Assembly: GCF_023706045.1 (NCBI RefSeq)
Contig: NZ_BQYL01000001.1
Span: 620,001-684,000, forward strand
DNA length: 64,000 nt
Reading direction: 5' to 3'
Source of the DNA: Kangiella sp. TOML190
GTDB taxonomy: Bacteria; Pseudomonadota; Gammaproteobacteria; Enterobacterales; Kangiellaceae
The notes below the pieces were generated by a model, which did no database searches, was not told the origin of the DNA, and saw only the letters and a list, made by a program, of their open reading frames with translations. Shown one piece after another: positions 10,960 to 12,728 of this stretch. The position numbers were made by a program, and so were the translations under genes. How positions within the stretch are numbered: position 1 is the first letter of the stretch; each line of letters opens with the position of its first letter.

Positions 10960-12135
10960 CTATGCTTTGTGTTCAGTCATTAGCTTGATGAAATGGTCGA
11001 ATAATGGTGCTGCATCGTGTGGGCCCGGGCTTGCTTCAGGATGACCTTGAAAGCTAAACGCTGGGAAGTCGGTGCGATGAATGCCCTGCAAAGAGCCATC
11101 AAATAAAGACCGGTGAGTTGCGCGTAAATTACTTGGCAAGGTATCTTCATCCGCTGCGAAGCCGTGGTTTTGGCTGGTGATTAATACGGTTTTATCATCG
11201 AGGTTTTGTACCGGATGGTTAGCACCATGATGGCCAAATTTCATCTTAATAGTTTTGGCGCCACTGGCTAGCGCTAACAGTTGATGGCCTAAACAGATAC
11301 CAAAAGTTGGGGTACCAGTTTCAACGATCTCGGTGATCGCTTCGATAGCATAATCGCAAGGCTCCGGATCGCCAGGGCCATTGGACAGAAAAACCCCATC
11401 AGGCTGCATGGCTAACACTTCGCTCGCTGGCGTTTGCGCTGGAACCACCGTTAACTCGCAACCGCGATCAACAAGCATTCGTAAAATATTACGCTTGACG
11501 CCATAATCGTAAGCAACCACTTTGAATTTCTTATCTTCAAGCTTGTCATGGCCTTTGCCCAGTTGCCAAGAAGCCGAATCCCATTGGTAAGTTTCTTTGG
11601 TACATACTTCTTTAGCTAAATCCATGCCCTTTAAACCAGGGAACTGCTTGGCTAATTCTAAAGCCTTGTCCTCGCTGAGATCCGCGACATCAGCGCCTGC
11701 CATCAAGCAGCCGTTTTGTGCGCCCTTGTCTCTTAGAATTCGAGTCAAACGACGAGTATCAATATCGGCAATTGCGACTTTATTATGGCGCTTTAAGTAT
11801 TCGCTTAAAGTTTCCTCGGAGCGGAAGTTGCTTTGCAGCAGCGGCAAATCACGAATGATCAAAGCTTCTGCCCAAACCTGGCTTGACTCTTCATCTTCAG
11901 TATTGGTACCCACGTTACCAATGTGCGGATAAGTCAAAGTCACCATTTGCTTAGCGTAAGAAGGATCGGTCAGGATTTCTTGATAGCCAGTCATGGCCGT
12001 ATTAAAAACGACTTCGCCGACGGCGTGACCATCACAACCAATTGAAGTACCACGGAAAATACTACCATCCTCAAGGACTAGAATGGCGGGCTGAAGCTCT
12101 TGAAAAGGCTGTGGTGCTGACAAGGAAACCTCCAA
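10960..12135 (-). CDS. carA: Carbamoyl-phosphate synthase small (glutaminase) subunit
   Basis: 391 aa. The N-terminal CarA domain ([38 protein letters not shown]) is followed by a class I glutamine amidotransferase domain with nucleophile Cys in [15 protein letters not shown] and the His-Glu pair in [14 protein letters not shown]. It releases ammonia from glutamine for CarB. The first 15 residues extend beyond the E. coli start. The mRNA leader contains a terminator-like hairpin (12200-12219), suggesting attenuation control. Confidence 0.98.
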
Positions 12136-12289: not shown

Positions 12290-12375
12290 TTTAAAACCGT
12301 CCGATCCTCTAGGAATTTTTGACTAAATATAAACTAGGAGAAAAAAGAGGTTAGTCAGCTCGAAATGGTCACAAA

Positions 12376-12499
12376 AGAAAAAGGGCGCTAGTTCGCGCCC
12401 ATTTTCAGTTGGCCTCATGCCAGATTTGTTGCTCCCTGCGACTTCCGTGTTTCACCATGTCCTTCGGCTTCGTCTTCCTTAGTCGTACCTCCTTGGTAC
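12376..12499 (-). ncRNA. Candidate CsrB/RsmZ-type regulatory RNA
   Basis: About 120 nt. The predicted 5' end folds into GTACC-AAGGA-GGTAC, a 5-bp stem presenting AAGGA in its loop, which is the classical CsrA/RsmA binding arrangement. Five GGA motifs follow one another at 11-16-nt spacing (plus-strand TCC at 12490, 12476, 12460, 12444 and 12433). A wider stem CGACT/AGTCG encloses the middle motifs. The 3' end is a strong terminator, GGGCGC/GCGCCC (12400-12395 with 12388-12383) followed by TTTTTCTTTT. A promoter-like pair lies just upstream (12507-12534). No open reading frame explains the segment. Family knowledge: RsmX/Y/Z and CsrB/C RNAs sequester CsrA/RsmA and are activated by GacA/UvrY-type regulators. 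The size matches RsmX/RsmZ. Assignment is by structure, not by a covariance search. Confidence 0.7.
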
Positions 12500-12506
12500 A
12501 GTTGAT

Positions 12507-12534
12507 AATTTACGCTTTTTTAGAAGCTTTGCAA
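12507..12534 (-). promoter_or_regulatory. Predicted promoter of the Csr-type RNA
   Basis: On the minus strand TTGCAA (12534-12529), a 16-bp spacer and TAAATT (12512-12507) predict a start near 12500-12499, exactly at the first base of the 5' hairpin. Further upstream, TTTACA/TGTAAA (around 12603-12608) resembles one half of the TGTAAG-N6-CTTACA box used by GacA-type regulators; the other half is poor. The remaining gap between here and the dapB stop at 12729 shows nothing else I can support. Confidence 0.45.
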
Positions 12535-12728
12535 CTGGAAAATTAAACGACAATATGAAATTCTAACAATTTTAAGTCCTTTATAATCAATAACTTAACC
12601 TTTTTACAGATTGAAATTTAAACAAACTCTTGGGGAAAAAAGAATGATCACTGATCAGGTTTTAAGCAAACTCTCACAAGTAGAATGGTCACTTTCCTAC
12701 AAAATCACTACAAAACGTGATCTAATTA

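Follow-up and report, generated by a model that had tools for sequence, protein, structure and literature searches.

CsrB/RsmZ-type RNAs are already well known, and by precedent they act in trans. The E. coli csrB gene has a UvrY site, TGTGAGAGATCTCTTACA, whose centre is at -183/-182; a second, partial site follows 5 bp further downstream. The UvrY site of Salmonella csrC is TGTGAGACATTGACCATT (PMC4682653). Pseudomonas rsmZ lies beside fdxA, and Alcanivorax, a marine gammaproteobacterium, has an independently transcribed candidate CsrA-sponge RNA, CsrR2, which has six GGA motifs, shows conserved synteny and adjoins hpt and fdx (PMC9788540).

We studied a window of 64,000 nt from Kangiella sp. 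TOML190 (NZ_BQYL01000001.1, positions 620,001 to 684,000), in which the minus strand of the dapB-carA interval holds a 126-nt stretch of hairpins, A-N-GGA motifs and a terminator (12502-12377). We conclude with high confidence that this is a BarA-UvrY-activated gene for a CsrA-sponge sRNA of the CsrB/RsmZ kind, with five A-N-GGA motifs and its own terminator. The RNA resembles PrrB/RsmZ (RF00166) in its length of about 120–130 nt, its A-N-GGA motifs, its 3' terminator and an end-to-end, sub-threshold match; it differs in scoring below the cut-off and in lying after dapB. With CsrB/RsmB (RF00018) it shares the GCAGGGAGCA core and the terminator, and with E. coli csrB it shares UvrY-type boxes far upstream, but it is about 125 nt long with five GGA motifs whereas the CsrB model spans 356 positions. 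Like CsrR2, it is a candidate CsrA-sponge RNA with conserved synteny and predicted independent transcription; unlike CsrR2, it adjoins dapB. What is new is the finding of a very probable short member of this kind in Kangiella, in an unusual place next to dapB.

The initial annotation had described a minus-strand 5' hairpin with AAGGA in its loop, five GGA motifs at 11–16-nt spacing and a strong terminator, all of which were confirmed (Table 1). The predicted sRNA probably starts near 12500 and ends in the T-run near 12375, for a length of about 123–126 nt. Folding of the window RNA gave the 5' hairpin as GUACC-AAGGA-GGUAC. The second hairpin belongs to the consensus structure, and the minimum-energy fold of the window's own sequence differs from it. 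In the third hairpin (helix 3), the outer two pairs were unpaired in most alignment rows. The promoter-like pair that had also been described was seen by eye, but it was absent from the promoter-scan output for the window. The claim that the RNA contains no ORF held for ORFs of 60 aa or more, as listed for the window, but four short ORFs of 20–45 aa overlap it in part.

Table 1. Features of the predicted sRNA, its upstream region and related loci. Positions are those of the window unless a locus is named.
Feature	Position	Strand	Evidence
CsrA-sponge sRNA (CsrB/RsmZ type, predicted)	12377..12502	minus	R1 match of 122.7 bits; alignments; sub-cut-off Rfam scores
5' hairpin, AAGGA loop, first GGA	12485..12499	minus	fold; both-side changes in 3 of 5 pairs
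Second hairpin, GCC-GAAGGACAU-GGU, third GGA in loop	12454..12468	minus	consensus structure; 100% of cells paired
GCAGGGAGC element with fifth GGA	12431..12439	minus	core common to Rfam CsrB consensus
Third hairpin, UGGC-AUGAG-GCCA	12410..12422	minus	consensus structure; both-side changes in 4 of 5 pairs
Intrinsic terminator (hairpin 12400-12383, then T-run)	12376..12400	minus	terminator scan; kept in 20 of 20 rows
Probable sigma70-type promoter, TTGCAA-16-TAAATT (TTGCAA 12534-12529, 16-nt spacer, TAAATT 12512-12507)	12507..12534	minus	read by eye in sequence and alignment
UvrY/GacA-type box 1 (candidate), TGTAGGAAAGTGACCATT	12684..12701	minus	14/18 to Salmonella csrC site
UvrY/GacA-type box 2 (candidate), TGTGAGAGTTTGCTTAAA	12661..12678	minus	14/18 to E. 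coli csrB site
Tandem Csr-type RNAs downstream of dapB, another family	L095:3243-5156, L144:6428-7083

Rfam searches at gathering thresholds gave no match in the window, and by these cut-offs the RNA falls outside both RF00018 and RF00166. The comparison with Rfam models proposed in the initial annotation came out divided: over the whole own genome each model had one match, at the RNA locus, but these scored 23.8 bits for RF00166 (gathering 44) and 21.9 bits for RF00018 (gathering 71). Among relatives, for which 11 of 20 loci were given to RF00166, there were five matches in four loci at E ≤ 1, with 38.1 bits in the sister genus (the best) and 29.4 bits in L004, all below the gathering score of 44.

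We used two models of the RNA: R1, of the full RNA, and R2, which was built without the terminator to rule out terminator-only matching. Over 247 genomes of the order, R2 at E ≤ 0.05 matched 63, comprising 16 Kangiella genomes and 47 outside the genus. Twelve of the best 14 R2 loci outside the genus overlapped Rfam CsrB at E ≤ 0.01, five of them above the cut-off; the other two (L132 and L133) had no overlapping Rfam CsrB match. R1 matched nine genomes outside the genus, and five of the nine loci were CsrB above the Rfam cut-off, one (L062) was a sub-threshold RsmZ and three were without Rfam support. Judged by these overlaps with accepted members of clan CL00106, the RNA is homologous to accepted CsrB members, as reached from the Kangiella side.

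R1 also catches unrelated terminators. Its match in E. coli csrB, at 21.2 bits, was no better than the terminator background and was set aside. Class-wide, R1 matched 11 of 369 genomes, the own genome and one genome of the order included. Eight class-level loci were inspected by eye; most were gene ends with terminators and were rejected as Csr RNAs, and the sole Csr-like one was L099:1501-1593 (genome G356). Scans of the own genome with the R1, RF00166 and RF00018 models gave no convincing second copy of the RNA, although a divergent copy may exist.

BLASTN against 61 genomes (the own genome and 60 relatives) matched the RNA in 18 of the 19 other Kangiella genomes, the unmatched one being 55% complete. 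Outside Kangiella, the matches were to a sister-genus genome (G020) and to G050, and the latter covers the terminator only. A degenerate core pattern run over a named genome collection returned 16 stretches, 13 of them titled Kangiella or Kangiellaceae; the three from unrelated organisms scored 12.8 to 20.1 bits and look like chance. A 330-nt query had no match in plasmids.

Conservation of the structure was studied in an alignment of 20 rows, 19 from Kangiella and one from the sister genus. The proposal that relatives be checked for retained GGA motifs and for compensatory changes in the hairpins was borne out on both counts. Four GGA triplets were invariant in 20/20 rows, with 5–7 GGA per aligned sequence, and the remaining one (the second in the window) falls in a gapped stretch. 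Over four helices, both-side changes occur in 9 of 19 pairs and 90% of cells pair; since the structure was itself derived from these rows, the first of the two figures is biased in its favour. When partner columns were slid by 1–3, the paired cells came to 31–49%. None of 500 shuffles reached any of five covariation measures, a test that is inflated by the related rows.

The two candidate UvrY-type boxes precede the RNA by about 190 and 170 nt and are 5 nt apart, in the gap past the dapB stop, so that, on sequence, a predicted UvrY/GacA site stands far upstream of the promoter. We scanned 300 nt upstream in 18 loci; in 17 of them the best match to the published UvrY sites was close to -200 or -178, whereas in L013 the boxes tied with another place. 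At most 16 of 300 shuffles did as well in 16 of the 18 loci, with weak results in L013 (74 of 300) and L018 (39 of 300). In L003 and L006 the Salmonella csrC site is present with 18/18 positions identical. Genes for three Csr-system proteins were identified in the own genome: CsrA, UvrY (NCBIfam equivalog, 313.5 bits against a cut-off of 280; 55% identity to E. coli) and BarA (39% identity to E. coli; 891 bits, just above the cut-off of 890).

We infer from these data that the RNA is transcribed, is controlled by UvrY, binds CsrA and affects CsrA targets. The BarA kinase would activate the response regulator UvrY, which would bind the two boxes and switch on the sigma70-type promoter. The resulting RNA would terminate at its own terminator, and its five A-N-GGA motifs, some of which sit in hairpin loops, would bind CsrA dimers and thereby draw CsrA off mRNAs. 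The predicted CsrA-sponge RNA of Kangiella is very likely functional and ordinary in its mechanism. The RNA, its hairpins, terminator and boxes are conserved, and csrA, uvrY and barA are present; together with covariation and the R2 matches at CsrB loci, these observations uphold the CsrB/RsmZ-type identity first suggested.

In the window, dapB lies at 13556-12729 and carA starts near 12123-12135, both on the minus strand, and DapB and CarA were confirmed by NCBIfam. Across 19 Kangiella loci (own included), carA was downstream of the RNA in 19 and dapB upstream in 18, the sole exception being a contig that begins 43 nt before the RNA. The synteny held across the genus, and the presence of carA within about 240 nt downstream in the window, would suit an RNA with a dual function, one that sequesters CsrA and in addition affects carAB through read-through or base pairing. 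We consider this improbable, as a strong terminator stands in 20/20 rows and in L017 the RNA and carA are about 1.2 kb apart, compared with about 0.2–0.3 kb in other relatives.

Less probable still is that the stretch acts in cis, as a conserved part of a leader or 3' UTR in the dapB-carA region, and is not a trans-acting sRNA, a reading favored by its fixed position between the two genes in all Kangiella loci showing both. The RNA has its own terminator and a promoter region with UvrY-type boxes, other Kangiellaceae carry Csr-type RNAs without dapB in the 3 or 13 kb covered, and the terminator-free model R2 finds CsrB loci. In addition, carA has a separate, conserved promoter-like pair of its own (12289-12261, TAGACT-17-TAAAAT), and its leader holds a terminator-like hairpin; the sRNA therefore looks like a separate unit and not part of an operon. 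Its initial placement inside a biosynthetic operon was not borne out. Nor was the suggestion that it links carbon and biofilm control to this locus: nothing observed ties the RNA to the regulation of carAB or dapB, or to the synthesis of arginine, pyrimidines or lysine.

In the window and in six aligned relatives, the carA leader (12289-12198, minus strand) has the conserved promoter-like pair and, immediately ahead of carA, the hairpin with TTTTTTGC after it; this leader is a candidate attenuator of carAB. Translation of carA probably begins at the TTG near 12123, which is preceded by GGAGG, in preference to the upstream TTG at 12135.

The GGA motifs of the sponge RNA start at 12492, 12478, 12462, 12446 and 12435 on the minus strand (spacings 14, 16, 16 and 11), and all five are in A-N-GGA context. 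Several such motifs, some in hairpin loops, are a feature of the CsrA-sponge clan CL00106, as are an intrinsic terminator without an ORF and a genome encoding CsrA and BarA/UvrY. A group of five A[ACG]GGA motifs within 60 nt occurs only once in the window, both strands counted, and that is at the RNA locus. The plain GGA count was within the shuffle range (mean 4.2; five reached in 806 of 2000 shuffles keeping the dinucleotide make-up), and hence what carries weight is the context of the motifs and their conservation, more than how many there are. The folding energy was mildly low only (z -1.6), and the third GGA in the window sequence had a predicted accessibility of about 0.4. A chance GGA cluster ahead of a terminator, with which the count agrees, is a negligible prospect, given that the stretch is conserved, shows covariation, has UvrY-type boxes and is homologous to CsrB.

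In the literature searched, no CsrB-type RNA in Kangiella was found in print; where the word Kangiella was counted, every paper among the matches listed was without it. Literature on Kangiella and sRNA came to nothing but a Legionella study, by its listing; that joining CsrB with carA and dapB, to nothing but fluoride work in E. coli; and that joining dapB with RsmZ, to P. aeruginosa work only. Nothing was found in the literature search for CSRfind, and Kangiella is absent from the main text of PMC5568370, supplements apart. The predicted RNA would complete the BarA-UvrY-Csr circuit throughout a genus whose sponge RNA goes unseen at Rfam thresholds, and it illustrates how short and divergent members can escape curated cut-offs. 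The compact Csr system and its dapB-linked location should be useful for finding other sponge RNAs.

Csr-type RNAs were also seen beside dapB in other genera. In the sister genus (G020; L096:5301-5881), two tandem Csr-type RNAs lie past dapB, with carA about 4 kb further. G049 and G092, which belong to another family, both show the order dnaJ, dapB and then two Csr-type RNAs. Four genomes of another Kangiellaceae genus had matches with neither dapB nor carA in the stretch covered (13 kb for three, 3 kb for one). The linkage to dapB thus extends beyond Kangiella but is not universal, and the shared position in Kangiella, the sister genus and the other family may be of common descent. Based on the tandem pairs, Kangiella may have lost one RNA copy. 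We tentatively speculate, without yet favoring it, that the Kangiella Csr system consists of a single short, five-site sponge RNA in an old dapB-linked place, with one tandem copy lost and with tandem csrC-like and csrB-like UvrY boxes. In two genomes (L135:1325-1849 and L137:1265-1776), an Rfam CsrB match directly abuts a Qrr RNA that is encoded on the other strand.
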